From: a virus
Direction: 5' to 3' (one strand)
Length of the DNA stretch: 23,862 bases
IMG/VR virus record: IMGVR_UViG_3300001472_004174
Location: 79,160 to 103,021 of that record
Part shown: piece after piece, positions 2 through 15,242 of the stretch
Numbering within the stretch: position 1 is the stretch's first letter
Layout of the letters: every line of letters begins with the position of its first letter
Made by a program: the position numbers and the translations under genes
The notes under the pieces: model-generated
Database searches by the model: none
Told to the model about the DNA's origin: nothing
What the model saw: only the letters and a program-made list of their open reading frames with translations

Positions 2-550
2 AACACTGACATAGAAAAGAACTTAGGACCCGTATATGGCGTCCAATGGCGCTCATACAACGGTGCTAGACGTAAAGTTGACCAGATAGCTGAACTAATA
101 AAAGGTATCAAAGAGAACCCACAATCTCGTAGACATATTCTTAATGCATGGAACCCAAGTGATATAGATATGATGGCGTTACCTCCGTGTCATACTATGT
201 CGCAATTTTATGTATCTAATGATAACAAATTACATTGTAATATGTATCAACGTAGTGCAGATTTATTTTTAGGAGTTCCTTTTAACATTGCATCATATTC
301 ATTATTAACTTATATGGTTGCACATGTTTGTAAGTTAGGTGTTGGTGAATTTAATCATATCTTTGGCGACTGTCATGTATATGAGAATCACTTTGATGCA
401 GTAAAAGAACAACTTAAAAGAAAAGCAGAACATTTTCCAAAACTAAGAATTAATAGAACTGTAGAGTCTATGAATGATTTTAAAATAGAAGATTTTGAAT
501 TGATTAATTATGACCCTCAGCCTTTTATTAAAGCATCGATGTCAGTTTAG
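2..550 (+). CDS. thyA: Thymidylate synthase ThyA, C-terminal part (5' end outside window)
   Basis: Folate-dependent thymidylate synthase, converting dUMP to dTMP in the phage nucleotide-supply pathway. The frame is open from base 2, so the gene begins upstream of the window; 182 codons are visible. The translation shows [10 protein letters not shown], the phosphate-binding [13 protein letters not shown] segment, the active-site loop MALPPCH with the nucleophilic Cys, [19 protein letters not shown] with the dUMP-recognising Asn, and GDCHVYENH. The Asn in PFNIAS argues for dUMP rather than dCMP as substrate. A dUMP hydroxymethylase, the relative used for thymine hypermodification, cannot be fully excluded because the N-terminal third is missing. 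The stop overlaps the convergent rpiB by 23 nt. It is the only left-side gene on the + strand. Confidence 0.95.
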
Positions 551-986
551 CAATTCTATCTTTATGTCTACCGCCTTCGAATTCAGTAGTTAAGAACTTA
601 TCAACAATTTTTAATGCAACTCTTTTAGAAGTAAAGTCTGCACCTAAACATAATACGTTTGCATCATTATGAAGTCTTGCCATTTCTGCTTCTTTAGGAG
701 TGCGAACTGTTACTGCACGAATATGTGGGTATCTATTGGCCGCTATTGCTACACCAAAACCAGAACCACATACTAAAATGCCTCTAGTAAATACACCTTT
801 CATTTCAAGTGCTAGGCTTTTTACTACATCTGGATAATCTACTTTTGCGTTTGGATCATAACAACCACAATCTAAATATGTTGTTATATCTTTTTCTATA
901 TCTTTGTCAATAGGAACAAGATATTTCTCTATTGCACATTTTAATTCATACCCTCTATGGTCTGAACCTGTAATCAAATCAGTCAT
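528..986 (-). CDS. rpiB: Ribose-5-phosphate isomerase B (RpiB/LacAB family)
   Basis: Interconverts ribose 5-phosphate and ribulose 5-phosphate (pentose phosphate pathway), or acts on a related aldose phosphate. The 152-aa length matches full RpiB. Visible motifs are [10 protein letters not shown] at residues 7-16 (Asp9, His10), [15 protein letters not shown] at 71-85 with the catalytic-type Cys73, HIRAVTV at 88-94, [11 protein letters not shown] at 106-116, and FEGGRHKDR near the C-terminus. The start at 986 overlaps the upstream hydroxylase stop by 8 nt, so it is the last gene of the long - strand operon. In a phage it could feed ribose phosphate to nucleotide synthesis beside thyA, or supply an isomerised sugar phosphate to the biosynthetic cluster. 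The second role is inference. Confidence 0.93.
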
Positions 987-1596
987 TTGTTTTTTCCCAT
1001 GGTAAAGGTTTTGATTTATCTATTTTTGGTTTAGGAAAACAAAATACTAAATGTGTTCTTAGTATCTTACTTGCATTTATGGCTGTGTGAGTTTTTGTTG
1101 TGTCAACTCTATATACTCCACCATATGGTATTCTGCATACTTTATCATCAATGACCATAAAACAATTATCATCAGTGACTATAGGAATATGTAATCTAGG
1201 TGTTTTGTCCTTATGATAAGTCAAGCATGATTTCATACCTAACATCATAAATCTACCTCTTAGGACTCCATATTCTTCATTTAAAGCGTTTACTATTTCC
1301 CCTATATATGTACCCTTCCATACATCACAAAGTAGATTAAACTCATCTTCTTGTAATATTACATCACGTATTTTAGGTCCAGAGTTTTCATAATCTTTCT
1401 CAGGAAAATAATCATCCCAATCATACATCAAACTACCACAACTGTCTAGTAGTTGTTTCTCTCCCTTAATACCTTCTCTACATTGAACTGCAATTTGTTT
1501 CTCATTATCAATAAGTTTCTGTTCAATGCCAAGTCCTTTGAACTCTCCTACAAGTCTCTTGTAATCGAATTCTATGTCTAATTTTTCTACACTCAT
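979..1596 (-). CDS. Aspartyl/asparaginyl beta-hydroxylase-like Fe(II)/2-oxoglutarate dioxygenase
   Basis: A 205-aa protein with a double-stranded beta-helix core in its C-terminal half. Fe(II)-binding HxD is His128-Lys-Asp130 (in TYHKDKTPRLHIPI), followed by Arg134/His136. A distal His170 lies in DTTKTHTAIN and a 2-oxoglutarate-binding type Arg180 in ILRTHLVF. This spacing is that of the Asp/Asn beta-hydroxylase family, which hydroxylates amino acid side chains or small molecules. The N-terminal ~100 residues are not recognised. It overlaps the PLP-enzyme gene upstream by 4 nt (ATGA) and rpiB downstream by 8 nt, so it is translationally coupled. The substrate is unknown; the context suggests a tailoring step in the radical SAM pathway. 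It is the first of three such enzymes in the window. Confidence 0.85.
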   Translation of the reverse strand: MSVEKLDIEFDYKRLVGEFKGLGIEQKLIDNEKQIAVQCREGIKGEKQLLDSCGSLMYDWDDYFPEKDYENSGPKIRDVILQEDEFNLLCDVWKGTYIGEIVNALNEEYGVLRGRFMMLGMKSCLTYHKDKTPRLHIPIVTDDNCFMVIDDKVCRIPYGGVYRVDTTKTHTAINASKILRTHLVFCFPKPKIDKSKPLPWEKTND

Positions 1597-2513
1597 TCAA
1601 AGTCCTCGTAATGTTTATCGTGTTCTTGCAAAGCATAAGACAAACATAATCTATTAATATATCCGTCTCTTTCAAAATGATTGTCTTTATCTTTTGTACT
1701 AATGCCAAAGATAACACTATCACTTGGTTCTATTTCTAGTTCTTTTGCTAACTCGATTTGTTTCTGTCTATATTTATTACACATATAATCAGGACTGAAC
1801 TCTTTCATTAATTCTGAATGTATTTTCATTCCCGCCATCTGTGTGTAAAAGTGTTCGTTTTGTAGTTGTAATGCAGTACGTTCAGTATTTCTTTTGTATA
1901 ACATACCGGTACGTAATCCTCCAGTAGCAAATGTCTTACTGAAACTAAATGCTACATGAGTTATACAATCATGATTTAGATTTAATCTGGGTACTTCTGC
2001 TACTCCAAACAAACAACAATCTATGAATACATCTACATTTCTTTTCTTACATGTAGCCATTATTCTATCCCAGTCAAAGTGTACGTTCCCAGTAGCACTA
2101 AAAGGATAACTTATAATCAAAGATCCACTGTTTGGTATATCTTCATACGTATCTAATACAGGGATCCCTAGGTCCCTATGATACGTGTACTCACCTCTGA
2201 GTACGTTTAAATCTATTGTAGTCTCATAGAAGTCTGTGAATGCATCAGTTATACCGTTAGTAACTAATCTATTCTTAAACTTATCAAGCCCTTCTATCTT
2301 AAACTTTTTACTAGAATGTATCCACTTATCATATTGTTCTATGAATGCAATTTGGTCATGTAATATTGAAAAGTCATAAGAGTCATTAAAGATATCAACT
2401 GAACTTCCTACTTCAATAACATCTTCGTCTACAATAGCTTTTGCTTTACGAATAGCCTGTTGTCTATTCTCACAATGTCTTGTAAATAAATCTATCTTAT
2501 CTAACTTTTTCAT
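1593..2513 (-). CDS. PLP-dependent aminotransferase-fold protein (fold type I, short)
   Basis: Resembles the large domain of class I/II aminotransferases. VFIDCCLFGV holds an Asp165 placed like the residue that pairs with the PLP pyridine nitrogen. FSFSKTFATGGLRTG holds the Schiff-base-type Lys193 and a phosphate-type Arg201. SYPFSATG at 135-142 corresponds to the NPxNPTG-type turn, and TNGITDAF at 85-92 to the N-terminal cofactor loop. At 306 aa it is clearly shorter than the usual ~380-400 aa, and the C-terminal small domain is reduced, so it may use a partner or be a specialised lyase or transaminase. The gene sits between a radical SAM gene (17-nt overlap) and a hydroxylase (4-nt overlap). 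A transamination step giving an amino sugar or amino acid precursor is plausible but not shown. Confidence 0.75.
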   Translation of the reverse strand: MKKLDKIDLFTRHCENRQQAIRKAKAIVDEDVIEVGSSVDIFNDSYDFSILHDQIAFIEQYDKWIHSSKKFKIEGLDKFKNRLVTNGITDAFTDFYETTIDLNVLRGEYTYHRDLGIPVLDTYEDIPNSGSLIISYPFSATGNVHFDWDRIMATCKKRNVDVFIDCCLFGVAEVPRLNLNHDCITHVAFSFSKTFATGGLRTGMLYKRNTERTALQLQNEHFYTQMAGMKIHSELMKEFSPDYMCNKYRQKQIELAKELEIEPSDSVIFGISTKDKDNHFERDGYINRLCLSYALQEHDKHYEDFE

Positions 2514-3660
2514 TTGGATATATTCTTACTAGGGTTCCTGGTGCTCTTTTTGGTATCTTACTATCTGCACTTGAAACACAACTTTCACTAATACATGGCT
2601 TAGGACTATCAAATAGTTTAAACCCACTTTCGATATATCCTAGTGGTTCATCTGCACAACTGTAAGAACGTTTAATACTTCCGTCTGGTTCTCTTATGAT
2701 AACACCTTTGAAGCCACTAGTACAATCCCAACCTTTGAACTTATTAAAGTTGAAAGCATTAAATCTTTCTGCTTGGTCTATGTACCACTTCTTGCCTTTG
2801 CTATCTTCAAACTCTACTTGCATGATTGGTGGGACACCTTTATCATCACCATTCATTACATCTTGATTCCACATAGTCTTTGCTGGCTTAGGTCTTATAA
2901 TCTTTTTACCTGTTGTCTTTTGTAAATCATCTGTGTATGCACGTTGTGGCATACCATTCTGCATAATCTCTAATTGCTTATCTGTATAACCTTTAACAAC
3001 AAAAGAAGCAGTAGGATCAGATTGAGGCTTTAACGTAACATTAATACCTCTGTTATGAAAGTATAATGCATTATCCCAATCAACATCAAATCTTTCAGGA
3101 ACAAGAACCATATTAATAGTTACTTGTATATCATATTCCATACATAATAAAAGTTTGTCTGCAAATTCTTCTGGCTTTGCAAACTCTCTATGATAACTGG
3201 CTGTAATACTTGCTCTATGCATTTTACCTACTATCTCAGCATACTTTATAAACCAATCTTTTTTACGAGAAATATTACTAGTCATATGAACGCTAGTGTA
3301 ATTACAATTATCGACATCATCAGCCAAATGTTGTAAGATGTCCAAGTATCCTGGATGGAATGTAGGCTCACCACCAGATAAACTAAAATGAAAACTATTA
3401 AACCCATTATCACGTGCTTGCCTCTTTATCTCATCAATAGTTGCTAAACACAATTCTGTAGGTCTATGGTCTTTTCTATCTGACCTAGCATAAGGCCAAC
3501 AGTAACTACATTTGTAATTACAGAAACGACCTAACAACCAAGATACTGAGAACAAATCTCTATACAATAGAGTACGCTGTCCTACTTTGACAATATCATC
3601 AAAGGGTATCTTCGTAAAGTCATACTGTGACCATTTAAGTGATTGTTTATCTATTTCCAT
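2497..3660 (-). CDS. Radical SAM protein with C-terminal auxiliary Cys cluster (class A, copy 1)
   Basis: A 387-aa radical SAM enzyme. The [4Fe-4S]/SAM motif CxxxCxxC is Cys47, Cys51 and Cys54 (in RFCNYKCSYCWPY), and GGEP at 96-99 is the SAM amino-group motif. A C-terminal set (GWDC at ~313, then Cys335, 356 and 361) is arranged like a SPASM/twitch auxiliary cluster. AAGG lies about 8 nt before the ATG. It begins 1 nt after the stop of the upstream twitch radical SAM gene and overlaps the PLP gene downstream. It shares architecture with the 356-aa protein at 10417-11487: CNYxCxYC, GGEPT, GWxC and a late Cys-rich tail. The two appear to be paralogs. The reaction is unknown; radical chemistry on a peptide or sugar substrate is the family expectation. 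Confidence 0.88.
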   Translation of the reverse strand: MEIDKQSLKWSQYDFTKIPFDDIVKVGQRTLLYRDLFSVSWLLGRFCNYKCSYCWPYARSDRKDHRPTELCLATIDEIKRQARDNGFNSFHFSLSGGEPTFHPGYLDILQHLADDVDNCNYTSVHMTSNISRKKDWFIKYAEIVGKMHRASITASYHREFAKPEEFADKLLLCMEYDIQVTINMVLVPERFDVDWDNALYFHNRGINVTLKPQSDPTASFVVKGYTDKQLEIMQNGMPQRAYTDDLQKTTGKKIIRPKPAKTMWNQDVMNGDDKGVPPIMQVEFEDSKGKKWYIDQAERFNAFNFNKFKGWDCTSGFKGVIIREPDGSIKRSYSCADEPLGYIESGFKLFDSPKPCISESCVSSADSKIPKRAPGTLVRIYPNEKVR

Positions 3661-3661
3661 A

Positions 3662-5083
3662 TTAAACCTTATACTTTTTCATTGCGTTATACAACTCTGG
3701 TAATTGTTTTTCCATATTTTCGTTTCTGATCCCATCAAGTTTCTCATTGTATTGCCAGAACTTTCTATTGTTTTCTTCTGTAAACCAATCTTCATCATAC
3801 ATAAACTTAATATTGTTGTCAAGTAATTGGTCCATTTTCATTATAGCCCACTCTTTATTTGCAGGCTTAATCATTCCCATTGCCATAGGATTTTTCTTGG
3901 CGAGTGAATGAAAGTCAATGTTATTAACTAAATCTGTTTTAAACTCTGTTCTAAAGCCTTCCCATTTATCACGTACTTGGTCTTTCACTTCTAATGGTAA
4001 GAACCTTGTCGCTAATTCATGTGGTCTATGTATTGGGTGTGCATTAACATATGGCTTAGGGTTATTCTTCAACATAGGAGATATAACTGCAAAGTCTTGT
4101 TCTAGTTTCCACTTTAAGAAATCACTAAAATGAAATGCATTTAAGGCACCAATAGTAAACGCTATCCAGGCTCTGAAATTCATCTTCTCTAAGCCAACTT
4201 CATCTAGCTTTAATAAATTCTTTTCCATTAGTTTAGACTTAAGTGGGTTACGTACATATTCTAATGTCTCACCTATTCCGTCCATTGATATACCGAACTG
4301 AACTTGTTTGAACTGTTTCCATAATTCTAATGCTCTTGGTTGAATATTAGTTAGGTTTGTGTTGTACTCAAGTGTTATTTCTTTTGCTTTATCTACTTCT
4401 ACACAATACTTTAAGAAATCATAATGTTCTTCAATAATAAGAGGCTCACCTCCCACTAGATATACATGTTGCATACCTGCTACATTTTCTTTTAGGTTCT
4501 CCCAGAAGTGATCCTTCTTAACCCAATCGTAATCGTTTGATACAAATCTACCTTTGTTATTCTTATACATTTCTACGATACCATGTGTATCTTTAAACTT
4601 ATTTGTGCCCCACATCTTAACATAATCATCGTACCAAGAACTACTATCCATCGGAGAACACATACGACATTTTAAGTTACAGAAATTACCTAAACGAATA
4701 TCATAGTAAGTTTGTTTTATATGATTTAAATCTATCGTACCATCTTCCGCGGTATGTTTCTGTGCTTGTTCTAATGTTATATGTTCAGCAAATCTTTCAC
4801 CATCATTAATACGTCTGGACTTCATGCCTGCTTTTTCTTCACGTAAACATCTAATACATTCAGCATGCCATTTATCATCTAAGATTGTCTTACGTATATC
4901 TTTAGCAAGAGGAGAGTTAATTGCATCAGTAATCTTATCTTGTTTAAGATTATAATTTGTTCCATCTTCTTTCTTATAGATACCTCTAGTAGGTCCTTGA
5001 TTGGCATGACAACAAACACGTAAATCACCATTAGCACGTGTAGATATGTTTATCCAAGGTAGAATGCAAAATGTACTAGACAT
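3662..5083 (-). CDS. N-terminal-twitch radical SAM protein (class T, copy 1)
   Basis: A 473-aa protein. The ATG at 5083 is chosen over the upstream in-frame ATG at 5110 because AAGGAG lies 6-7 nt before it, and translation then starts directly at the conserved FCILPW strand. An N-terminal Cys-rich twitch segment comes first: Cys6, GDLRVCC at 20-25, and CIRC at 76-79. The radical SAM motif NFCNLKCRMCSP follows (Cys135, 139, 142), then GGEP at 211-214. This order, auxiliary cluster before the radical SAM core, is typical of 'twitch domain-containing radical SAM' proteins, which are found among other places in marine phages. It overlaps the upstream radical SAM gene by 8 nt. It is a paralog of the genes at 8850-10409 and 12559-13830. 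The substrate is unknown. Confidence 0.88.
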   Translation of the reverse strand: MSSTFCILPWINISTRANGDLRVCCHANQGPTRGIYKKEDGTNYNLKQDKITDAINSPLAKDIRKTILDDKWHAECIRCLREEKAGMKSRRINDGERFAEHITLEQAQKHTAEDGTIDLNHIKQTYYDIRLGNFCNLKCRMCSPMDSSSWYDDYVKMWGTNKFKDTHGIVEMYKNNKGRFVSNDYDWVKKDHFWENLKENVAGMQHVYLVGGEPLIIEEHYDFLKYCVEVDKAKEITLEYNTNLTNIQPRALELWKQFKQVQFGISMDGIGETLEYVRNPLKSKLMEKNLLKLDEVGLEKMNFRAWIAFTIGALNAFHFSDFLKWKLEQDFAVISPMLKNNPKPYVNAHPIHRPHELATRFLPLEVKDQVRDKWEGFRTEFKTDLVNNIDFHSLAKKNPMAMGMIKPANKEWAIMKMDQLLDNNIKFMYDEDWFTEENNRKFWQYNEKLDGIRNENMEKQLPELYNAMKKYKV

Positions 5084-6311
5084 GCTGTCTCCTTGCTTGT
5101 TCATGTTCATTCTCTGTCATTTCTGTATCTTCATAGTTCTTTTTACTGTTGCCTCTAAAGTCTAAATCTTTTCCACATGTTTTACCACATATAAAAAGAC
5201 GTTTGCTTTCATTACTCCAGCTTTCAACTAGGTCATTTGAATAGTATGCTGTATTCAGTATATCAAAAATTGAATGCTTTGACAAGTCATTAAAGTCTTT
5301 TCCGTACTTATTTTCTAATTCAACTCTATCATCTATTCTTTTCTGTGTACCTTTGTCTTCTCCTACTGTACTGTAGTAATGCCCTTGCCAACAACAAGGC
5401 CAAACTTTACCTTTGTAATCTATAAAAATACTTTTATCTCTTGACGTTTGACAATCAATCTGTGTTGTCTTAACATAATTATCAAAGGTCTTATGTTGTT
5501 TTAATATCGTTTCAAAATTCTTTGTAGTGTTAGATGCATCTGTTTTCTTTGGTGCTTCTAATACTGTTTCTTTTTGCATAGGGTTTTTCTTTTGATGCTG
5601 TCTGGATACAAACTTAATAGTTGTTTTCTTTTCAATAGATTCATCTTCTCTGGTAGTATCTGGATCTGCACTATAATCTTTAGGTATAACATATCTATTT
5701 GACTTCTTATATCTAAACTTTATAAAACCCATATCATTTGCTAGTTTTCTAGCTTCTTCAATCTGGTGTTCATTATGTGCAAATGCAATATAGTCCCATC
5801 TAGCAAAACCTCCTGCTCCTATGAATGCTTTTGCATTACGCATTATTACATCCCACTTAGTATTTACTCTATACAAATGATTTGTGTCTTCTAATCCATC
5901 AATAGCAAATATAACTTTATCTTGCTTACGCATCATCTTAGCTAAATTAATCCACCAGTCTGCTTTATGCACTCCGCCATTTGTACTAAGCGTTACTTGT
6001 GGAACGCCAGCGTCAATATACATTTGCATCACTTCTTGTAAATGCGGATACATTATTGGATCCCCAAAGTTACCATTAATAAAAACATGATTAGGCAAGA
6101 AAGGTTTCATTTCTTCTAACATATTATAAAGTAACTGTGGATCTGTATCAACTAATTGCAAGTCATCACGTTTCTTTAGTATTACTCCATCATGGTCTAG
6201 TCCTGTGGTTCTGGCACACATAGGACAAAGGGCATTACATCTTGAGGTTAACTCTAAGTGTAACACACCAACATCAAACTTAATATATTTTAGTTCTTTT
6301 TGCTTCGCCAT
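5076..6311 (-). CDS. Radical SAM/SPASM protein (class S, copy 1)
   Basis: A 411-aa protein starting with a short lead-in to the CxxxCxxC motif SRCNALCPMC (Cys25, 29, 32). GNFGDP at 80-85 replaces the usual GGEP, a variant shared with its paralog at 11487-12575. Other shared stretches are LSTNGG, the DGLEDTNHLYR helix start, and AHNEHQIEEARKLA. A SPASM-type C-terminus carries Cys287, the pair WPCCW (306-307), and CGKTCG (375, 379). The charged linker at ~210-265 looks disordered. SPASM proteins bind extra Fe-S clusters and often act on peptides or proteins. The gene overlaps its upstream neighbour by 22 nt and the downstream twitch radical SAM gene by 8 nt. No strong Shine-Dalgarno precedes it, consistent with coupled translation. 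Confidence 0.86.
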   Translation of the reverse strand: MAKQKELKYIKFDVGVLHLELTSRCNALCPMCARTTGLDHDGVILKKRDDLQLVDTDPQLLYNMLEEMKPFLPNHVFINGNFGDPIMYPHLQEVMQMYIDAGVPQVTLSTNGGVHKADWWINLAKMMRKQDKVIFAIDGLEDTNHLYRVNTKWDVIMRNAKAFIGAGGFARWDYIAFAHNEHQIEEARKLANDMGFIKFRYKKSNRYVIPKDYSADPDTTREDESIEKKTTIKFVSRQHQKKNPMQKETVLEAPKKTDASNTTKNFETILKQHKTFDNYVKTTQIDCQTSRDKSIFIDYKGKVWPCCWQGHYYSTVGEDKGTQKRIDDRVELENKYGKDFNDLSKHSIFDILNTAYYSNDLVESWSNESKRLFICGKTCGKDLDFRGNSKKNYEDTEMTENEHEQARRQHV

Positions 6312-7891
6312 TTTAAAAATAATTCTTCCGGATAGCCATATGCGTGATTGATTTCTTCTATTTTCATTCCTCTAGTAGGAGAACCATCCCAATCTGCACT
6401 ATGCAATCTAATATGTTTGTTTTTCTCACACATTTTACTGACTACATCTTTATAGCCTGCTCTGCGTTCTTCATACGATAGCAACCATGTTGTATACCTT
6501 GTAGTAATATAATTACTACTCCACACTACACTATCATATCCTTCTTCATGTGGTTGAATTCTATCTATAAGAGGCTGTGCATTTCTACATAAATCAGCAA
6601 CACCATATGTGATGTTAGGATTATGTTTTACTTTTTCATGCATTGAATAGAAGTCTTCCATCGTATCAAATATTCTTAGAATACTTTTCTGATATGCCTC
6701 TTTTGCTTTCTCTCTTTCACTTTCCCAATTAGGTGACATGAAATCAAAGTCTTCATAAATTGATATCAGGGCTTTATCAGTCTTATACCATTCATCGTGT
6801 AAATAATCTAAGTATTGATTGAAGTCTTGAGGATCCCATTCATTGTGCATCCACTTTCTTGCTTCTAAACTATTTGCTGATATATCAAAGTAATTTATTC
6901 CTACGTTCTCTACATCAGTATTAGGGTTCCAACCATTTAAGAATGCAAATGTTTTAAATCCTGCGGCTACACTATAGATATTCTTTAATGGAAACTTTCT
7001 AGGAACAAAGTATACATCATTAACTGATTCTGTATTCATGACCCATATAGCATCTGGTGAACGTTGAACTGTATAACTTTGATATTGTAAGAATTCTTTT
7101 TTAGTTTGACCTAAGTTACTTTCTTCTGGTTTGAACTTAGCACAGTCTTCTCTAAAGAACTTTTTGAATTCTTCTTGTTCTTCTTTAATCTCTGGATACA
7201 AATATGTTTTAGTCTTACGTGCTTGTTCATCAAAGTTTCTTACTGGTAAACCTGCCTGTAAACTCTTTGCTATTAAGTTCCAACCAAAGCCTGTTTTATT
7301 AATTGTCTCTTGTGCTGGACCAGGAGCCAAATACTTAGGTGTATGTCCGTCATGGAAGTTTTCCATGCTACGAATGGCTTGTCTAACTTCTTGTTGTTTA
7401 ACTCCAAAGTCTCCAAACGCTGGTCTTCCCATTTCTTTCCACATAGGATAGTTGATAACAAAACATTGTTCATGTAATCTAAACCATCGGTCTTTGTGCT
7501 GTTCGTCAAGAATATGTCCCATCAATAGGAATTTATTTGCCTTTGCATCTTCTAACCAATCATAATTACAATACTCTCTGAATAAACTATACCCATGCTC
7601 TAATGGTTGCCATGTGTCATATAATATATTACCATATGCTTGAACTACTAAAAGAACAATATCACTTTCTTCTGGATCATTGGCCAAGTCTGCTAATATC
7701 TTATCAACTGAATCTTCTTCATAAATCTTATGTCTATAATGGCTGTAATTATTTCTAAGAAAGTTATAAGTTATCTGTTTAGTATATTCGGATACATCGT
7801 CATCACCAATGGTTTTAGAGGTATCTAACACTGCACATCTAATTGCTTTAATAAAGTTAGTTGAGCGTTGATGGTCTGTGTGTTTATTCAT
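6290..7891 (-). CDS. Large unknown protein with GT-like N-terminus and SAM-methyltransferase-like Rossmann segment
   Basis: A 533-aa protein of unknown function. Residues ~75-160 (IVLLVVQAYG, FLLMGHILDE, RLHEQCFVINY, MGRPAFG) resemble the phage glycosyltransferase-like proteins in which a conserved FLxGHI/LHEQC core follows a Rossmann strand. Residues ~275-350 start with SPDAIWVMNTES and continue with IYSVAAGFKTF (glycine motif I position) and NYFDISANSLEARKW (acidic motif II). This is the same arrangement seen in the two methyltransferase-like proteins at 13830-16189. A later VVWSSNYITTRYT (~455-467) could be the motif IV strand. No signal peptide or membrane segment is seen. The start overlaps the small membrane peptide gene by 4 nt (ATGA) and the end overlaps the radical SAM gene by 22 nt. 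The domain assignment is by pattern only; catalytic competence is unproven. Confidence 0.7.
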   Translation of the reverse strand: MNKHTDHQRSTNFIKAIRCAVLDTSKTIGDDDVSEYTKQITYNFLRNNYSHYRHKIYEEDSVDKILADLANDPEESDIVLLVVQAYGNILYDTWQPLEHGYSLFREYCNYDWLEDAKANKFLLMGHILDEQHKDRWFRLHEQCFVINYPMWKEMGRPAFGDFGVKQQEVRQAIRSMENFHDGHTPKYLAPGPAQETINKTGFGWNLIAKSLQAGLPVRNFDEQARKTKTYLYPEIKEEQEEFKKFFREDCAKFKPEESNLGQTKKEFLQYQSYTVQRSPDAIWVMNTESVNDVYFVPRKFPLKNIYSVAAGFKTFAFLNGWNPNTDVENVGINYFDISANSLEARKWMHNEWDPQDFNQYLDYLHDEWYKTDKALISIYEDFDFMSPNWESEREKAKEAYQKSILRIFDTMEDFYSMHEKVKHNPNITYGVADLCRNAQPLIDRIQPHEEGYDSVVWSSNYITTRYTTWLLSYEERRAGYKDVVSKMCEKNKHIRLHSADWDGSPTRGMKIEEINHAYGYPEELFLKWRSKKN

Positions 7892-8061
7892 TTAAATTTC
7901 CTGTCGATCCATTTCTTTCCAATATACATTAGACTTACTACAATAAGTAGTCCTATTAGTATGCCTGTTTCTACATGTAGGTTACCAGTATCTTCAACCT
8001 CAATGCCTTTGGTTGTTATTGCAATTCTACAGTCTTCACATTGTTGTGTTTCATTATCCAT
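7888..8061 (-). CDS. 57-aa single-pass membrane peptide with CxxC
   Basis: A small gene in what would otherwise be a ~160-nt gap between coupled genes. ATG at 8061-8059 and TGA at 7890-7888 give 57 aa. The start overlaps the hydroxylase stop by 8 nt and the stop overlaps the next ATG in an ATGA arrangement, which is strong evidence that it is translated. The N-terminal ~30 residues are polar and acidic with Cys8-x-x-Cys11. A hydrophobic stretch at ~33-48 (ETGILIGLLIVVSLMYIG) is a credible transmembrane helix, followed by a basic tail (KKWIDRKFK). By the positive-inside rule the N-terminus would face the periplasm. The function is unknown. It could anchor the enzymes to the membrane, pair with host electron transfer, or be a modified peptide; none of these is shown. 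Confidence 0.75.
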   Translation of the reverse strand: MDNETQQCEDCRIAITTKGIEVEDTGNLHVETGILIGLLIVVSLMYIGKKWIDRKFK

Positions 8062-8860
8062 TAATTTTATTCCAACTGTTTAACATAATATCTTCATACC
8101 CTCTACCACCATACTGCCCGTGAACAATCATATGAACTCTTACTTCATCTGTATCATTCATCACTGCATGTTGATGTCCTACATTCATTTTAATCATCTT
8201 ACCAGGCTTCCACGGAACATATGCATTATCATCAATCATTTTAAAATAACAATGCTCTGGATTGTTTAGCGATATATTCAATGGTCCTAACTTATTGTGT
8301 TCATAATCATTATGAGGAGTAATGTATCCGCCTGGTTCTAAGTACATGTAACGAACTCTATCGTATGCCATATAACCTGGAATAGACTTAATCATTTCTA
8401 CTGTCTTAGGACATTTATCTGCAACCTCTGTCCAATGATATGCTTCTCTTACTTCTTCTTCACTTTTAAAATCAAAGCCCATTGCTTTAACATCTTTACT
8501 ATCCCAATGCTGAGATACATGTTTACCTAACCCATGTAGCGTCAAAGAGCGCCAGCCTCTGTGTCCATAGTCATCAGGGTTGCTTTCATCATAATCATTT
8601 TTTCTATGTTGAATAGCTTCATCATAAACTGCCATTGCTTCATCATAACATGCTTTCCAATCAAACTCAGGAGTATCTAATACTAACCATGGGATGCCTG
8701 ATTCATGTGAAACCCATTTTACTTTTCTGAATCTTGCTGACTCTGGAAATCTAGGTTCCTTAATTAATGCATCCACAAATGTATCTGGTACAGTATCAAA
8801 ACTATAACTATGTCTATCTTTGAATGCTTCTTCGATTATGTTTGGATAATTAATTGTCAA
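8054..8860 (-). CDS. Aspartyl/asparaginyl beta-hydroxylase-like Fe(II)/2-oxoglutarate dioxygenase
   Basis: A 268-aa protein. The C-terminal beta-helix core shows LEPGGYITPHNDYEHN with HxD at His183/Asp185, GPLNISLNN at 192-200, distal His231 in VGHQHAVMN, and Arg241 in VRVHMIVHG. These are the Fe(II)- and 2-oxoglutarate-binding positions of the Asp/Asn hydroxylase family. The central region (~95-150, with RGWRSLTLHGLG) is characteristic of longer phage members. The start is an unusual TTG at 8860, supported by AGGAG about 7 nt upstream and an 11-nt overlap with the preceding radical SAM stop. It lies inside the radical SAM operon between a twitch radical SAM gene and the membrane peptide. Its expected role is hydroxylation of a pathway intermediate or protein; the substrate is unknown. 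Confidence 0.85.
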   Translation of the reverse strand: MTINYPNIIEEAFKDRHSYSFDTVPDTFVDALIKEPRFPESARFRKVKWVSHESGIPWLVLDTPEFDWKACYDEAMAVYDEAIQHRKNDYDESNPDDYGHRGWRSLTLHGLGKHVSQHWDSKDVKAMGFDFKSEEEVREAYHWTEVADKCPKTVEMIKSIPGYMAYDRVRYMYLEPGGYITPHNDYEHNKLGPLNISLNNPEHCYFKMIDDNAYVPWKPGKMIKMNVGHQHAVMNDTDEVRVHMIVHGQYGGRGYEDIMLNSWNKING

Positions 8861-10409
8861 TGTCTAACTCCTGCTGATTTACGTGAAAACCATTGTCTTC
8901 TAATTCTTTTAATAGTCTGTCATCAAACTCACCATCCCAATCTTCTCCGTCATCTGGAGTCCAATCTAGTAATGGTGCCATCTCTGGGAATACATCTCTG
9001 AAATTAGTATCACGTATCCCATCCATTTTATTAATATATTCAATGAACTCTGGCATACGCTGTCTTGACCAGTCGCCGCTCTCTGAGAACTGTAACATAC
9101 CTTGTAATCTTTTCACACCATATGCGGCTTGACGCCAATCTTCATATGTTACTGGTGTTAGTGAACCTTTAGTACATAACTCCCAGTTTTCTTCTAACCA
9201 TTTGATGAAGATATCATATTTCTTATGTGTCATTTCTTTAAACCAGTTAGGAAGAACTTTGACATTAAGATGTGGTGGGTGATAAACAAAGTGATAGTTA
9301 ATCATACCTGCACCTAGTGGCCATAAGTTAATCTTCTTAAAGTTTTGTTCTAGTTTCCACTTAACAAAGTCTGGTAAGTAATAAATGTTTAGAGCCTGAA
9401 CTGCACATGCTACTGTAACTTCTACATTAGGACCTGTGTTGTCTAATAGATGAAACTGTTTTACTGTGTGTTCCCATTCACTTGGATAACGAATATAATC
9501 ATTCATTATACCAATACTATCTACTGAATAATGAAAACGTACACGCTTGAACTGTTTCCACAAATCAAATAAACGCTGTGGCATTTCTAATCCATTTGAA
9601 TTATATCTTAATTCAATACCCGGAGCATAGCCTCTTTCTACAACTTCCTCAAGCAAAGTATAATGTTCTTCGATAATTGTAGCTTCACCACCAGCAAAGT
9701 ATAACTGTTTCATATGTGGGATTTGTTCGTACAACTGATCCCAAAATGCATCATTCTTTTTATGCCAGTTATATGTTGCACCATCTATCTGACCTTTGTT
9801 ACCCCATTGCATAGTTTCTTTTAATGATTCGTTTTCAATCTGTGGATGTAATTTAATCCAATCTTTAACCCACATTGAACTATCGTGAGGTGAACACATA
9901 ATACATTTAAGATTACATTTAGAACCTAAACGTAAGTCTAAGTATCTAATCTTTGGAGGGATTGCACCATCTTCGGCTGTCTCCTCAATTATTTCTTTCA
10001 TGTCAACTCTACGAGACCAATACTCTGTTTCCCAATATCTTTTTGACATATGGCCTGCGTCTTCCTCTTTGTAACATTTCATACAACTAGGAGGCATTTC
10101 GTTATTAAGCATCTGCGTTCTAACATTTTTCATATAATCATTATTCCAACTTGACATCAAGTCGCTATGATTTAAGTTTGCAGGTTTACCATCAGCATTT
10201 TTTAAAACACCGACTTCTCCGCCATGTTCTTTATCATTAGTAGGACCAACTGAACTTGCATTAGCTGTGCAACAAACACGCATATGTCCATTGGGTCGTG
10301 TACTTAGATGTACCCAAGGCAAAAGACAGAATGTCTTTGTTGGTGCACCTGTTCTACGTTGAAATTCTTCTAAGTTTTTCTCTAATTCTGGATTGTTTTT
10401 CTTGGACAT
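8850..10409 (-). CDS. N-terminal-twitch radical SAM protein (class T, copy 2)
   Basis: A 519-aa protein. Residues 27-33 (FCLLPWV) open the N-terminal twitch segment, followed by GHMRVCC (41-47) and CMKC (109-112). The radical SAM motif is KCNLKCIMCSPHDSS (Cys165, 169, 172). The SAM-binding GGEP motif reads GGEA at 240-243, a Pro-to-Ala change not seen in the two other class T copies. It is the longest class T protein, with an acidic C-terminal tail (WTPDDGEDWDGEFDD, ~480-495). The start is 8 nt after the upstream radical SAM stop without a strong Shine-Dalgarno. It ends by overlapping the TTG start of the hydroxylase. It is a clear paralog of 3662-5083, with long shared stretches such as IIEEHY and YLxDFxKWKLEQ. 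Confidence 0.88.
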   Translation of the reverse strand: MSKKNNPELEKNLEEFQRRTGAPTKTFCLLPWVHLSTRPNGHMRVCCTANASSVGPTNDKEHGGEVGVLKNADGKPANLNHSDLMSSWNNDYMKNVRTQMLNNEMPPSCMKCYKEEDAGHMSKRYWETEYWSRRVDMKEIIEETAEDGAIPPKIRYLDLRLGSKCNLKCIMCSPHDSSMWVKDWIKLHPQIENESLKETMQWGNKGQIDGATYNWHKKNDAFWDQLYEQIPHMKQLYFAGGEATIIEEHYTLLEEVVERGYAPGIELRYNSNGLEMPQRLFDLWKQFKRVRFHYSVDSIGIMNDYIRYPSEWEHTVKQFHLLDNTGPNVEVTVACAVQALNIYYLPDFVKWKLEQNFKKINLWPLGAGMINYHFVYHPPHLNVKVLPNWFKEMTHKKYDIFIKWLEENWELCTKGSLTPVTYEDWRQAAYGVKRLQGMLQFSESGDWSRQRMPEFIEYINKMDGIRDTNFRDVFPEMAPLLDWTPDDGEDWDGEFDDRLLKELEDNGFHVNQQELDIDN

Positions 10410-10416
10410 ACTGTAT

Positions 10417-11487
10417 TTATTTAACCTTAAACTTCGTTACTTCTGTGTCAGATACACAACTACACCATGTTTGTGGGCATATTCTTCCATCAATAGGGAA
10501 GTCTATTTCATCTGGTTTGTTTATATTTCCATGTGATAAGTTTAGAAAACAACTATTACCACTTGTGACTGTTCCATTTAAATTGACAACTAATGCTTCT
10601 ATACCAATCATACACTTCCAGCCTTTCCATGAGTTATGACCTTGTTCCATTATATGATTTGCATTCTGAAATGATTCTGATTTGCCTGTCTTTGTGTTTA
10701 TATATCGCATTTGCTTACCAAAGTTCTTTCTTTTAAACTTCTTTACTGTCATCATATGCTCAGATACATTTTCAACTGCGTCATCTATCTCTTGTCGATA
10801 CTTTGTCTGCCCATCCCATTGTCTTAATTTATCAAAGGCACCTTCTGGATATACAAATGTATTATCACTGCCTAATGTCTCTTGTAATGCTTTCGAATTA
10901 TGAACTATGCACTTAGAATTCTCATGGTAATATTGAGCCGCTTCATAATTTAATTCTATTAACGGAGGATATATAGCTGACTGAATAGAACATATCGTTC
11001 CCTTGTCAGTAAGTATGTTTGATACCTCTGTTACATGTTTATAGTCTGCACTTTGTGGATGATAACTTATAATAACTTCATCAAATATGTTTGCATTCTT
11101 CTCCCACCATCGTAGGGTTCTTGAACCGTTAGTCAATATTCTTACGCTGGCATTTGGGTCGTATGCTTTCATCTTATGAAATACTTCCTCAAACTTAGGC
11201 CAGACTGTAGGTTCACCACCTAACAAGTTCCATAGTATTCTCTTACCAGGAGCAACAACTCTATAATGGTCTGTTAATCTTTTAGTGAACTTTAGAAATA
11301 TATCTACATCAGGCCAAGGCTGACTACCATCATGAAAGTAATCATCACAATATGTACAGGCATAGTTACAAGTATTCCCCATCATCCAATCAACGATAAT
11401 GTAATCATTTCCAGCAATAGGCTCGTATCTATCATACATATCGTGGTATGAAGTATTTGCTTTCATCCTGAGTTTTAATTCAGCCAT
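10417..11487 (-). CDS. Radical SAM protein with C-terminal auxiliary Cys cluster (class A, copy 2)
   Basis: A 356-aa protein. CxxxCxxC is NTCNYACTYCDDY (Cys40, 44, 47), with GGEPTVWPKF at 90-99. A C-terminal auxiliary set comprises GWKC (~291), GNSC (~312), ICP (~336) and CSC (~341-343). The start overlaps the upstream stop by one base (TAATG), so translation is coupled. It matches the architecture of the 387-aa class A protein at 2497-3660 (CNYxCxYC, GGEPT, GWxC, paired late Cys) and has similar length. The radical SAM core places reductive SAM cleavage at the N-terminal cluster. The extra cysteines suggest at least one further Fe-S cluster near the C-terminus. The reaction is not known. Confidence 0.87.
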   Translation of the reverse strand: MAELKLRMKANTSYHDMYDRYEPIAGNDYIIVDWMMGNTCNYACTYCDDYFHDGSQPWPDVDIFLKFTKRLTDHYRVVAPGKRILWNLLGGEPTVWPKFEEVFHKMKAYDPNASVRILTNGSRTLRWWEKNANIFDEVIISYHPQSADYKHVTEVSNILTDKGTICSIQSAIYPPLIELNYEAAQYYHENSKCIVHNSKALQETLGSDNTFVYPEGAFDKLRQWDGQTKYRQEIDDAVENVSEHMMTVKKFKRKNFGKQMRYINTKTGKSESFQNANHIMEQGHNSWKGWKCMIGIEALVVNLNGTVTSGNSCFLNLSHGNINKPDEIDFPIDGRICPQTWCSCVSDTEVTKFKVK

Positions 11488-12575
11488 TACTTGAACTGCT
11501 CCGCAAATGCATCAAACTCTTTACCACATTTCTGTGAACATACCATAGGTTTGCCTGCATGTACATTTGGTTTACTCCAACTATCTACTAATCTATTAGA
11601 AAAGTATTCATTGTTTAATACATATTCTATTCCATGTTTCTTTGCATCGAATTCATCTTTGCCACCTGACTGTTGTATTAATTCCCACACTTGGTTCTCA
11701 CCAGGCTTCTGCCACCACTTATACATACTACCTGCGACCCAACAACAAGGAAGAATTAATCCTTCTGCACTAATATACATATTCTTTTCTGCCGCTACTT
11801 TACAACTAATCTGTACATTATCAAAATACTTTTCTAGTGATCCGTGTTTTGTTTTAATCTCTGTAATCTTGTCTAATGCTTTGTTCTGATACTTTACCTC
11901 TTTTGGTTGTTGTAGTAATTGTGTTTCAGCACCTTTTCTATTCTTTGCTTGGTGTTCATCTTTCTTCACTTGTTTCATTGTAGAAAAGAAACGACCTGTT
12001 TTCTTTGGTATGAATTTCTTAAAGCCTGTTTTCTCTGCTAATGCTCTGGCTTCTTCTACTTGATGTTCATTGTGTTCAAAGATTAAATAGTCCCAATGTG
12101 CTTTGCCACCTGCTTCAATAAACGCTACTGCATTTTCCCACGCTATATCCCAATTAACATTTTGTCTATATAAGTGATTTGTATCTTTCAGTCCATCAAA
12201 TCCAAACTTAACATAACTCCAATTGCCTAATGTCTTTGCTAATTCTCTCCACCACTCTGGTCTCTTTGCACCAGCGTTGGTATTCATTCCTAGCGTTAAC
12301 TCTCGCTTCTGTGAACGAAAGTATTGCATAACTTCTAATGTGTCTTTAGCAACAATCGGATCACCAAAGTTACCACACATATAAATTCTTTCTAACTGCT
12401 TTACAAACTCTGGAGGCATCATCTCCTGAACGTCTTGCAATGACAATTCATGCATACCAAGATTAGGATTATCTTTACCACCATGTACATTTCTATCGCA
12501 CATAGGACAAGCGGCCTGACACTTTTCAGTTATTTCTAGGTGTATCGCTCTTACGTCATTATAACTGTAAATCAT
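11487..12575 (-). CDS. Radical SAM/SPASM protein (class S, copy 2)
   Basis: A 362-aa paralog of 5076-6311. CxxxCxxC is EKCQAACPMCDRN (Cys19, 23, 26), and GNFGDP at 68-73 stands in place of GGEP. Residues ~126-137 (DGLKDTNHLYRQ) and ~167-180 (EHNEHQVEEARALA) closely match the 411-aa copy. The SPASM-type C-terminus has Cys257, LPCCW (276-277) and CSQKCG (~345-349). The linker ~195-235 is charged. AGAGG lies about 7 nt before the ATG at 12575. The gene overlaps the preceding twitch radical SAM gene by 17 nt. The near-identical layout of the two S copies, each next to a class T gene, points to duplication of a functional pair. Confidence 0.87.
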   Translation of the reverse strand: MIYSYNDVRAIHLEITEKCQAACPMCDRNVHGGKDNPNLGMHELSLQDVQEMMPPEFVKQLERIYMCGNFGDPIVAKDTLEVMQYFRSQKRELTLGMNTNAGAKRPEWWRELAKTLGNWSYVKFGFDGLKDTNHLYRQNVNWDIAWENAVAFIEAGGKAHWDYLIFEHNEHQVEEARALAEKTGFKKFIPKKTGRFFSTMKQVKKDEHQAKNRKGAETQLLQQPKEVKYQNKALDKITEIKTKHGSLEKYFDNVQISCKVAAEKNMYISAEGLILPCCWVAGSMYKWWQKPGENQVWELIQQSGGKDEFDAKKHGIEYVLNNEYFSNRLVDSWSKPNVHAGKPMVCSQKCGKEFDAFAEQFK

Positions 12576-13830
12576 TATAATCCTCTTTAATTATATCCCA
12601 TACTTGAGGAATAAAATCTTTAATGTGTTGTCCTCTGGCTTTATCGAATCTTTTAGTCGCTCTTGCTAAATGTTTTGGATGATATTCTTTATCGTCTGAT
12701 AACGCTTGATTTAACGAAGGCAGAACTCGTTCAGCAAATACATCGTCCCATTCTTTAAATCGCTCAATTAATTGTTGTAAGTATGGTTTTCTTATACTAA
12801 GAGGAATACTTCGTATCGAATCCCATTCAGGAGCCCTTAAGATTTCTGGTCTAATTGTGCATCCTATTTCTTTTGCCCACACAACTGTATCATATAAATT
12901 AAATAGATTGTAGGCTTGTAATGTAAAACTTATTTCTGATATATTTCTGTTTGCAATAGTATGATATATTCTTATAGTTTTGTTTATGGTTGAGAACTTT
13001 ACTGGTGTTCTGATATATTCTACAACTTTGTCTATACCATCAATACTATAATTAAATGATATTGCTGAGAACTTAGATAACTTATCTAAGAACCTTTTAT
13101 TATTATTAGTACAGTTTGTTGTAAAGTGTATCGGCACATCAAAGTATTTTTTATCAATAAGAATATCTAAAAACTTATCTACCTCTGGCATAATTGTTGG
13201 TTCACCACCTAAGAATTTAATTCTATCGCCTTTGTCCGCGGCTTCTAATAAGAATTCTATATTACCATCACGTTGAAACACATCTGATTTTCTTATAATG
13301 CCATCACCCAATATTGGTTTCATCAATACTCTGTTGTCTTTTATTTCTTTCTCCATCTGCGAACTTGATACTGGTCCACACATTCTGCACTTCAAGTTAC
13401 ATAAGTTACCCGGTCTGATATCTAAATCTAATGGAGAATTGTGTTGGTTTCCTGTTTCAACATTAGGAATTAAGTCATCCATATATGTTTCATTGAAGTT
13501 TATTCTATCACTTTTACCACCTGCATCTTCAATATTATAACATTTTACACAAATATCAGGCTTTTCGTTTCTTAAAAACTGTTCTCTTATATTTTTATAA
13601 TAGTCATTACTCCAACGTTTCTCTAAGTCTAACTCTGTATCATCTGTTACCAAATTATTTTCAGTAGACATACAACAAACTCTTTGACCTTCATTGCTAT
13701 GAATATACATATGAGAAAACGGAGCCATACAAATATTATTAGTTTTTACTGTACCGTCTTGGTACTGTAGCAACAACTCTTTCCATGCTTTTCTATATTC
13801 TATGCTTTTGCTTAGGTCATTTGTAATCAC
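12559..13830 (-). CDS. N-terminal-twitch radical SAM protein (class T, copy 3)
   Basis: A 423-aa protein, first of the seven radical SAM genes in transcription order. It starts with GTG at 13830, which overlaps the upstream TAG by one base and has GGGG about 7 nt before it. The N-terminal twitch segment is NICMAPF (Cys34), GQRVCC (Cys52-53) and CVKC (94-97). The radical SAM motif is NLCNLKCRMCGP (Cys144, 148, 151), with GGEPTIMPE at 208-216. It is the shortest and most divergent class T member but keeps the order twitch, radical SAM core, variable C-terminus. The substrate is unknown. Its position directly after the methyltransferase-like genes ties that pair to the radical SAM block. Confidence 0.87.
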   Translation of the reverse strand: MITNDLSKSIEYRKAWKELLLQYQDGTVKTNNICMAPFSHMYIHSNEGQRVCCMSTENNLVTDDTELDLEKRWSNDYYKNIREQFLRNEKPDICVKCYNIEDAGGKSDRINFNETYMDDLIPNVETGNQHNSPLDLDIRPGNLCNLKCRMCGPVSSSQMEKEIKDNRVLMKPILGDGIIRKSDVFQRDGNIEFLLEAADKGDRIKFLGGEPTIMPEVDKFLDILIDKKYFDVPIHFTTNCTNNNKRFLDKLSKFSAISFNYSIDGIDKVVEYIRTPVKFSTINKTIRIYHTIANRNISEISFTLQAYNLFNLYDTVVWAKEIGCTIRPEILRAPEWDSIRSIPLSIRKPYLQQLIERFKEWDDVFAERVLPSLNQALSDDKEYHPKHLARATKRFDKARGQHIKDFIPQVWDIIKEDYNDLQL

Positions 13831-15242
13831 TACTTTTCCCCGATAATCATATAGCGGTTATAATGCTCCAATTCTAATGTTCCGGTAAATATTTCTTTCG
13901 ACAGTTTTAACTCTTTTGCCCAAGTATCAACGTCTGTCTTAGTATTAACGACTGTATCATCTTCATGCTCAATAAAGTCATTATTTTGTAATATCACTAG
14001 AGTACCCTTTGGAATAGCATTCCACCATTTATCAAATTCTGCAATATGTTCGCAACTTGTATTGATTACACATGTTGGATGACCAATAGTATGTGTTGTA
14101 TTCATTACTTCGAACTTAAGTGCATCACTGTATTTATAATGATTTATTGGTAGAGTTTCCTCAGAAAACTTCAATTCTGCTACATCTTTGACAAATGATT
14201 TGAATTTCATGCTGTCAATTATATATTCTTTATTGAGTGTGTCTGCTGGATTATCTGTAGTAGGATCTATATCAAAGCTATAAATGTTCCCTTCAATCTT
14301 GCATCTTTCAAATAATAATGCTGGTAACACTCCATACCAACCTGCACAAGTGTAAATAGTCTTACCTAAGTTTATATCATAATTATTTACAATGTCAATT
14401 AACCACAGTTTAGACTGCAACTGTCCTCGACTGAATGCATCAGTCAATGATTGACCTTCAAATCTATTAGTCATTTTTTTCATATTCATAGGAATACTAT
14501 ACTTGCCTTCAGTAAGAGTATGAACTAATTCAAATACTTTTGTTTTAAATATTGTTGCACTTTTTACGTTAGCAATATCTTCATTTGACTCATCAAAACC
14601 CTGAATAACTTTAAATAATAAATATAAGTCTGGATCAGTATCAACTGCAATAATATTTTTTAATGCACTTAATATTTCATCACCAGGATATTCAATGTTC
14701 ATTATTACTCTGAATAATAATTCTGTTTGTGATTTAATAAAATTATGATTACCACAAACATTTTTTAATGCACCTAATCCTTCTTCATCATCTATTATTT
14801 TTTCTAGTACATTAAATAATAAAAATACTAAGTCTCTATCAAACTCACCTTCTTCCGCACAAATAGTATTTTTTAAATCATCTAACGTATCAGTATTATC
14901 AGGATACATTCCATTCAAAACTCTAAACACAAGATACATTGATTTTCTATCAATAGTTTTACATGCCATAAAGTTTCTTAATGCGTCCAATGAATCATCG
15001 TTTTGAGATATTTTGTCTAACACTTTAAACAGGACGAATGTGTTATCACAAACTTGTCTCTCATAAACGAGATTCATTAGAGCATTTATATTTGCTCTAT
15101 GTTTCTTACCTAAGAAATAAGAACATAAAGTAAATACGCTACTGAGTTCCTCAGTATTAACAACTCTTTCTAATTCAGATAGCATAGGTCTACTATTCCC
15201 ATAAAGGAGATTTAATCTATCTGCAATTTCATACGGCTTCAT
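13830..15242 (-). CDS. Alpha-helical repeat protein fused to SAM-methyltransferase-like domain
   Basis: A 470-aa two-part protein. Residues ~30-245 contain at least five tandem units of about 33-37 aa, with hydrophobic helix starts LFKVLDKI (71), LVFRVLN (104), LLFNVLEKI (141), LLFRVIMNI (175) and LLFKVIQGF (208). Each is followed by a second helix ending in LDALRN/LDDLKN/LGALKN/LSALKN. This is a helical solenoid (TPR- or HEAT-like), probably a binding surface. Residues ~275-470 look like a class I SAM methyltransferase: YTCAGWYGVLPAL (296-308) as motif I, SFDIDP (322-327) as motif II, and CVINTSCEHI (391-400) as motif IV. It is related in layout to the 315-aa protein just upstream. The start overlaps the upstream stop by one base (TAATG). 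Whether the protein methylates anything is unknown. Confidence 0.75.
   Translation of the reverse strand: MKPYEIADRLNLLYGNSRPMLSELERVVNTEELSSVFTLCSYFLGKKHRANINALMNLVYERQVCDNTFVLFKVLDKISQNDDSLDALRNFMACKTIDRKSMYLVFRVLNGMYPDNTDTLDDLKNTICAEEGEFDRDLVFLLFNVLEKIIDDEEGLGALKNVCGNHNFIKSQTELLFRVIMNIEYPGDEILSALKNIIAVDTDPDLYLLFKVIQGFDESNEDIANVKSATIFKTKVFELVHTLTEGKYSIPMNMKKMTNRFEGQSLTDAFSRGQLQSKLWLIDIVNNYDINLGKTIYTCAGWYGVLPALLFERCKIEGNIYSFDIDPTTDNPADTLNKEYIIDSMKFKSFVKDVAELKFSEETLPINHYKYSDALKFEVMNTTHTIGHPTCVINTSCEHIAEFDKWWNAIPKGTLVILQNNDFIEHEDDTVVNTKTDVDTWAKELKLSKEIFTGTLELEHYNRYMIIGEK

Follow-up and report, generated by a model that had tools for sequence, protein, structure and literature searches.

Clusters of genes for radical S-adenosylmethionine (SAM) enzymes, hereafter rSAM, have been described from several phages. 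According to a report from 2010 (PMC2853527), the Campylobacter phages CP220 and CPt10 carry 11–12 rSAM genes per genome, several of them in one cluster, with an enzyme set exchanged between relatives and with two nearby proteins annotated as bearing a nucleotide-diphospho-sugar transferase domain. A T4-like marine viral genome, TARA_ERS488813_N000010, was presented in 2017 with 12 rSAM genes as part of Fe–S metabolism (PMC5332604), rSAM cassettes occur in the host-recognition clusters of pelagimyophages (PMC7029224), and the Pelagibacter phage Mosig has MoaA-like genes beside genes for a carbamoyltransferase, an aminotransferase and a methyltransferase. Here we analyse a stretch of viral DNA of 23,862 nucleotides (hereafter the window), the final 23.9 kb of the 103,021-base IMG/VR virus record IMGVR_UViG_3300001472_004174, in which seven rSAM genes of three architectural classes (A, S and T) lie in one operon-like cluster, and we argue strongly that three of them, A1, S2 and T2, constitute an evolutionary unit.

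The window resembles the above systems in its large rSAM set (for the TARA genome, a marine T4-like virus, the comparison is by published description), but it differs from those compared by sequence. No orthologues of the trio were found in the fetched stretch of CP220 (L001), where the best scores were 27–80 bits as against several hundred for orthologues, CP220 and CPt10 having an amidinotransferase instead; nor were any found in the fetched stretch of Mosig (best score 87 bits). Multi-rSAM phage clusters are already known, whereas searches of the open-access literature found no description of the constant A1–S2–T2 trio, either in jumbo-type phages or as a compact gene group in Bdellovibrionota. 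No pathway in that literature could be matched to the set either, in keeping with the earlier note on this DNA, which knew of none, and there is a real chance that the trio represents a new pathway.

The source of the window is a fragment of a marine jumbo-type phage. The nearest relatives of the 929-amino-acid DNA polymerase encoded in the record are those of jumbo myoviruses, namely Sinorhizobium phage Phosso (48% identity), Agrobacterium phage Atu_ph07 (45%) and Cronobacter phage GAP32 (42%), and contigs of 138 and 342 kb include stretches that have long exact words in common with the window. A SAM synthetase gene (identified by the N-terminal part in the stretch read) is also present in the record, as is an eighth match to the Pfam rSAM family PF04055 outside the window. 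The seven rSAM open reading frames (ORFs) of the window are as follows (aa, amino acids).

2497..3660, minus strand: A1, class A rSAM enzyme of the core, 387 aa, with CxxxCxxC and four distal cysteines (PF04055 E 6e-12)
3662..5110, minus strand: T1, class T rSAM enzyme, accessory, 482 aa (or 473 if a downstream start is used; NF033640 348 bits)
5076..6311, minus strand: S1, accessory rSAM enzyme of class S, 411 aa (PF04055 E 3e-8)
8850..10409, minus strand: T2, class T rSAM enzyme of the core, 519 aa, with a twitch-like domain at the N terminus (NF033640 432 bits)
10417..11487, minus strand: A2, accessory rSAM enzyme of class A, 356 aa (PF04055 E 2e-9)
11487..12575, minus strand: S2, class S rSAM enzyme of the core, 362 aa, with a GNFGDP motif (PF04055 E 4e-7)
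12559..13830, minus strand: T3, class T rSAM enzyme, accessory, 423 aa from a GTG start (NF033640 297 bits)

The earlier note had reported seven rSAM genes of three architectures between positions 2497 and 13830, and indeed all seven ORFs are present and all their products match PF04055, six above the curated cut-off and T2 just under it (26.5 versus 29.5 bits). The reported adjacency of T and S genes in both halves is likewise seen in T1–S1 and S2–T3, with A2 lying between T2 and S2. Since the ORFs of the cluster mostly abut or overlap by a few bases, the arrangement is operon-like, and the same gene order across the stretch shared with a relative from a different assembly (L088) speaks against misassembly. 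The cluster motif reads CNYKCSYC in A1 and CNYACTYC in A2, and GNFGDP is present in both S1 and S2. T1, T2 and T3 exceed the 170-bit cut-off of NF033640 (“twitch domain-containing radical SAM”), which names an architecture and not a function, T2 being a distinct lineage tied to A1 and S2; A1, A2 and S2 score only 40, 25 and 37 bits and S1 has no match row, and no NCBIfam cut-off is reached by the A and S proteins among the matches listed. The N-terminal SPASM/twitch stretch scores 22.1, 22.2 and 18.0 bits in T1, T2 and T3 against a cut-off of 21.5 (T3 thus falling below). For the SPASM-type end ascribed to class S in the earlier note, the SPASM family PF13186 gives 21.3 bits for S1, against the same value of 21.5, and no match for S2, whose distal cysteines are nonetheless conserved (see below). 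Similarity to viperin and its prokaryotic counterparts (pVip) is weak and covers the SAM-binding core: A1 and A2 score 39.7 and 44.0 bits against the 180-bit cut-off of NF038283, and the PADLOC pVip models give 18.8–46.2 bits for six of the seven proteins and nothing for S1. With scores this weak, a viperin-like or other defence role was set aside. A sequence search of solved structures linked A1 to sulfatase maturase and viperin (E about 1e-4 to 1e-3), T2 to SkfB and S2 to NifB, all uninformative on the substrate.

Searches of viral sequences with profiles of the window copies yielded 589, 509 and 452 related stretches, and eight with U533, another protein of the operon (see below); from these, 80, 74, 80 and seven viral loci, respectively, were kept. 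Merging overlapping or near-identical loci, together with seven stretches from isolates or the virus's own genome and the window itself, gave 145 locus clusters. At least seven rSAM genes (identified by motif and phmmer) occur in the representative stretch of 69 of the 145, with a maximum of 13, and 14 virus records of 116–457 kb contain 8–20 PF04055 matches each, so a set of seven is ordinary among the relatives found through these genes. The view of the earlier note that so many such enzymes in one viral operon are exceptional was hence overstated, all the more so as large phage sets had been published before.

What sets the seven genes apart from each other is how widely they recur. With score limits set by class, and with counts that are lower bounds as the stretches are cut, relatives of A1, T2, S2 and T1 occur in at least 79, 90, 85 and 81 of the 145 clusters (T1-type at 290 bits or more), and members of the family of MT470, a protein encoded next to T3, in 74 (at 40 bits or more). 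Close relatives of S1 (five clusters, at least 400 bits), A2 (five, at least 200 bits) and T3 (four, at least 250 bits) are rare. A1, S2 and T2, and less strictly T1, are therefore widespread and conserved, S1, A2 and T3 make up a variable shell, and the same-class pairs pointed out in the earlier note are not equal copies. A recurring viral gene order is (carbamoyltransferase)–glycosyltransferase–(MT315)–MT470–S2–T2–variable genes–A1, often with T1 before A1. A1 is 62–81% identical to its counterparts in 22 diverse viral relatives, and A1, T2 and S2 are each found in all 14 large virus records, with one T2 orthologue (E<1e-200) per record; these records were chosen through one family of the trio or a related query, and about 11 are independent, G005–G007 and G001/G002 being near-copies. 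When isolated phages were considered as carriers, in a search of 50,697 phage records with A1, U533, T2 and S1 as queries, A1 and U533 had no match, T2 had three matches at 22–25% identity, and S1 four at 24–28%.

The trio is also present in bacteria. The A1 profile, run against 84,980 species at one genome per species, returned 26 loci. The record titles of 20 of these name Bdellovibrionales, Bdellovibrionia, Oligoflexia, Bacteriovoracaceae or the like, with 55–68% identity and on contigs of up to 936 kb; five contigs of metagenome-assembled genomes (MAGs) with other titles have rSAM-rich arrangements resembling those of phages and are possibly phage sequence that was binned with bacteria. 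The profiles of the three families have the window proteins as their first rows. When 39 records were searched over their full length, A1 was present in all 39, and T2 (E≤1e-150; T1-type proteins reach about 1e-112) and S2 (E≤1e-100) were found in 37 each, the 25 bacterial genomes chosen by A1 contributing 23 with T2, 23 with S2 and 22 with the full trio. Because these 39 records had been chosen through a trio family or a related query, an even draw of 290 genomes of the phylum Bdellovibrionota provides a fairer test. There, A1 (E≤1e-60) occurs in 17 genomes, T2 (E≤1e-120) in 15, all with A1, and S2 (E≤1e-110) in 17, 15 of them with A1; 14 genomes have all three. The hypergeometric p values are 3e-23 and 4e-21 (uncorrected for kinship), and 15 of the 17 A1 genomes were already among those from the 84,980-species scan. 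Two further class draws, of 274 and 289 genomes, gave T2 in their centre genomes alone, both of which had been found through A1, and in none of the other 273 and 288.

Linkage and sequence conservation point in the same direction. Mapping of 14 bacterial loci placed the three genes side by side on the same strand in seven, and side by side with one of them inverted in three more. The order varies (A1–S2–T2, S2–T2–A1, T2–A1–S2 and A1–T2–S2), adjacency being mostly kept; in G078, S2 lies on a different contig, showing that the trio is retained even when unlinked. Relatives of MT470 (>60 bits) lie near the trio in eight of the 14 loci, relatives of the putative glycosyltransferase GT1223 in seven, and either in 11. 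In an alignment of 56 loci with all three genes near full length, every locus retains A1 cysteines C47, C51, C54, C313, C335, C356 and C361 (CxxxCxxC plus four extra), T2 cysteines C28, C46, C47, C109, C112, C165, C169 and C172 (five of them N-terminal extras), and S2 cysteines C19, C23, C26, C67, C277, C278, C346 and C350, with C258 kept in 55 (six extra beyond CxxxCxxC). Ratios of nonsynonymous to synonymous substitution rates of 0.04–0.10 for the window genes against three relatives (NG86) show by computation that they are under purifying selection. Pairwise distances of the three trio trees correlate (r 0.55–0.74; permutation maximum 0.24), and in the A1 tree 41 of the 42 virus-group rows, counting the MAG contig L269 among them, form one set (support 98, quick tree).

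The co-occurrence and linkage of A1, S2 and T2 in phages and bacteria thus argue strongly that the trio is an evolutionary unit, and the earlier note was right to look for a working unit that combines an A, an S and a T enzyme, the three being jointly present in 14/14 virus records and 22/25 bacterial genomes. Several observations weigh on the other side. All 26 bacterial A1 loci come from MAGs by title, and kinship or joint transfer may account for part of the co-occurrence seen across the phylum. Exceptions in that draw include A1 without T2 (G020, G249), A1 without S2 (G020, G025) and S2 without A1 (G082, G282). Among the genomes chosen by A1, G022 has no T2 and G020 has only a T1-like score (9e-92), the T2 of G029 is interrupted by a contig end, the A1 match of G010 is partial (E 5e-86), and the S2 of G012 is distant from A1 and T2. 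The trio is non-contiguous in four of the 14 mapped loci, one virus row (L136) groups with Bacteriovoracaceae, and the window-type T2 groups with bacterial T2 and not with most viral T2.

The earlier note interpreted the seven genes as a three-enzyme module that had duplicated and diverged. We inferred midpoint-rooted FastTree phylogenies for each class, thinned at 60% identity (from 195 to 59 sequences for A, from 228 to 103 for S and from 490 to 253 for T), and these rule out a duplicated A+S+T module. A1 and A2 lie on opposite sides of the midpoint root (27 versus 32 of the 59 rows); S2 belongs to a clade of 27 rows (support 100) that includes nine bacterial rows, with S1 outside it; T1 and T2 are placed in neighbouring clades of 30 and 23 rows, each containing bacteria, and T3 in another clade of 44. 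Given their placement in different clades, copies of the same class are old, separate lineages.

The remaining annotated genes of the operon, all on the same strand, are listed below.

528..986, minus strand: RpiB/LacAB sugar-phosphate isomerase (PF02502 E 4e-45)
979..1596, minus strand: second Asp/Asn beta-hydroxylase family protein (PF05118 E 3e-8)
1593..2513, minus strand: aminotransferase class I/II-like protein (PF00155 E 1e-5)
6290..7891, minus strand: U533, no family found, relatives 64–95% identical in seven viral loci
8054..8860, minus strand: aspartyl/asparaginyl beta-hydroxylase family protein (PF05118 E 9e-18)
13830..15242, minus strand: MT470, N-terminal repeats and a class I methyltransferase-fold domain
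15242..16189, minus strand: MT315, relative of MT470 (phmmer 30 bits to MT470)
16182..19853, minus strand: GT1223, multi-unit protein, homologous unit with a GT-A-like fold
19891..21456, minus strand: Nol-like carbamoyltransferase (PF16861 E 1e-51; phrog_1601 E 1e-93)
21547..22266, minus strand: DUF6071 protein (PF19547 E 3e-9), which we take to be an SGNH protein

A cupin-like protein, below its cut-off, is encoded on the same strand, and a thymidylate synthase gene lies at the window edge. U533 has no Pfam, NCBIfam or PHROG match at the limits applied (DUF87 appears at a lax limit with E 0.014, below the cut-off), and MT315 has no Pfam family above cut-off. The aminotransferase-like ORF, with 306 aa compared with 344 aa for the syntenic ORF in L088, may be truncated.

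The folds of two companion proteins give some insight into the possible chemistry. A single-unit relative of GT1223 (L155:1094-1792) was modelled by AlphaFold with a pLDDT of 91.5 and a GT-A-like fold. The best Foldseek rows are glycosyltransferases, headed by the fucosyltransferase WrtF (E 1.5e-4, TM-score 0.38), a second structure comparison gives B4GALNT1 (Z 11.2 over 138 residues), and the S-glycosyltransferases SunS and ThuS are also among the fold matches; the sequence search of solved structures gave no match for this unit. A DADA-type motif is conserved. By eye, GT1223 itself looks like several GT-A-like units in a row, with a clear DADA only in the last and DPDVDV, HPNTEV or TPDTAI in its place in the others. 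GT1223 is thus probably a glycosyltransferase, a function that is likely and not firm because nucleotidyltransferases of the IspD type (cytidylyltransferases) tie with glycosyltransferases (Z 11.1) and the TM-scores are low. A homologue of MT470 (L212:2605-3288) is predicted to adopt a class I methyltransferase fold (pLDDT 87), with NodS as the best structure match (Z 16.4) and many rows within Z 2, and MT470 had one chance match in the sequence search of solved structures. These predicted folds do not fix the substrates; together with the carbamoyltransferase, they suggest sugar chemistry.

Genomic context is the basis for proposing a product. We tentatively interpret the cluster, at near-even confidence, as a single operon for biosynthesis with three radical enzymes at its core, whose likely product would be an unusual sugar or glycan; the case for a glycan is moderate. 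Within 6 kb of the core genes at 15 bacterial A1 loci, 16 of 123 proteins match Glycos_transf_2, compared with at most one of 99 proteins in nine control stretches from nine genomes (p 4e-4; the control table lists 25 of 147 families, including every family with at least two members). L265 has an epimerase, a GT2 glycosyltransferase and an acyltransferase beside the trio, and L257 an epimerase and DegT. The 342-kb relative (L275:1-15001) has a second rSAM group by a fusion of cytidylyltransferase and mannose-phosphate isomerase, two epimerases and DegT, with a C-methyltransferase (Methyltransf_14) nearby. The case for a glycan product is weakened by the fact that Glycos_transf_2 counts within one locus are not independent, and by the trio loci L249, L259 and L266, which have, by eye, mainly housekeeping or catabolic neighbours and no sugar genes except a GT1223-type unit. 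The phage, moreover, also encodes a ketosynthase, an acyl ligase and an acyl carrier protein (ACP), and rSAM enzymes with SPASM or twitch domains are best known from peptide modification.

Under the sugar or glycan interpretation, A1, S2 and T2, each with a SAM-cleaving 4Fe–4S cluster and with extra cysteines that could hold auxiliary clusters, would act in one pathway, taking a common substrate through one radical step after another; this substrate would most likely be a nucleotide sugar or a growing glycan. GT1223 would then transfer the sugar or glycan, and MT470 would methylate it. Interchangeable tailoring, varying between phages, might be the part of the four other rSAM enzymes together with the aminotransferase, the carbamoyltransferase and the hydroxylase-family proteins, and the virion or the infected cell may carry the glycan on its surface. 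That a glycan is made is our inference from context; where it would be displayed, what each enzyme does and in which sequence they act are likewise conjectural. A more specific version, in which the three rSAM architectures act as an obligate cascade or complex building a new sugar or surface polymer, common to Bdellovibrionota and uncultured marine jumbo-type phages and diversified in the phages by an exchangeable rSAM shell, is somewhat less likely than not.

A different substrate would be a peptide or protein, with the rSAM enzymes introducing radical cross-links or other changes into a virion or host protein that GT1223 glycosylates. The SPASM/twitch-type domains in S1 and the T proteins, the two Asp/Asn beta-hydroxylase family proteins of the operon, and SunS and ThuS among the GT unit fold matches all fit such a role, as does a conserved 74-aa protein encoded between MT470 and S2 in many viral relatives. 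Yet the gaps between trio genes in the seven contiguous same-strand bacterial loci measure from −17 to 35 nucleotides, with one of 133, which leaves little room for a precursor gene inside the trio (this consideration covers the inside of contiguous bacterial trios and ORFs of at least 50–60 aa), and we regard peptide modification as unlikely. The 74-aa protein (L024:4105-4329 and relatives), highly conserved and usually located between MT470 and S2 in marine relatives, was recognized by motif in 61 of 248 fetched viral sequences and has no Pfam family above cut-off. Its profile finds nothing anywhere in the 103-kb record, the window included; in bacterial loci it is clear in the MAG contigs L255 and L267, with titles other than Bdellovibrionota, and weak in one Bdellovibrionota locus (L260, E 0.11); a universal precursor is thereby ruled out.

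The matches to PF00109/PF02801, PF00501 and PF04820 at 68–75 kb of the record and the PP-binding domain at 22914–23150 of the window could instead point to a lipid- or polyketide-like small molecule, in whose synthesis the ACP, the ketosynthase, the acyl-AMP ligase and the Trp-halogenase-type flavoenzyme of the phage would take part. Except for the ACP, however, these genes are on the opposite strand and outside the window, 4–11 kb from its left end, and the Bdellovibrionota trio loci that were viewed by eye lack such a set, with an enoyl-CoA hydratase near two of them, which makes this product improbable. Hypermodification of phage DNA or nucleotides, for which the thymidylate synthase at the window edge and a QueE-like frame in the record (by eye) might be cited, is harder still to reconcile with the same trio on bacterial contigs of up to 936 kb, where by eye no phage genes surround it in the loci listed, and seems very remote. 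That there is no joint pathway at all, the seven genes having been acquired independently and kept for separate reasons, accords with the separate origins of the copies and with the wide variation of the accessory members between phages; for the trio it is largely contradicted by co-occurrence and linkage in phages and bacteria, for T1, S1, A2 and T3 it could still hold, and as an account of the whole set it strikes us as quite improbable.

Other parts of the record may also encode biosynthetic functions. The region at 68.2–74.7 kb (L007:8214-14679) contains the genes for the acyl-AMP ligase, the flavoenzyme and the ketosynthase, and for two desaturase-like membrane proteins (by eye), one of which was tested and had no Pfam match; with the ACP of the window, this is a lipid- or polyketide-like set in a phage. 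The QueE-like frame (L006:18366-20000; no Pfam match at 0.001) adjoins the SAM synthetase gene, and a minus-strand group at L005:5467-11196, with a QueC/PP-loop-like protein and a half-length AMP-binding domain, is possibly another tailoring cluster.

Reports of phages with many rSAM genes go back to 2010, yet offered no way into the function of these genes. The present analysis reduces the crowd to a constant three-enzyme core and a variable shell, and the compact bacterial form offers a small testable system. If the product is indeed a glycan, the trio would represent viral radical chemistry on surface sugars, with a bearing on host recognition; if it is a peptide, it would represent a new class of modification.

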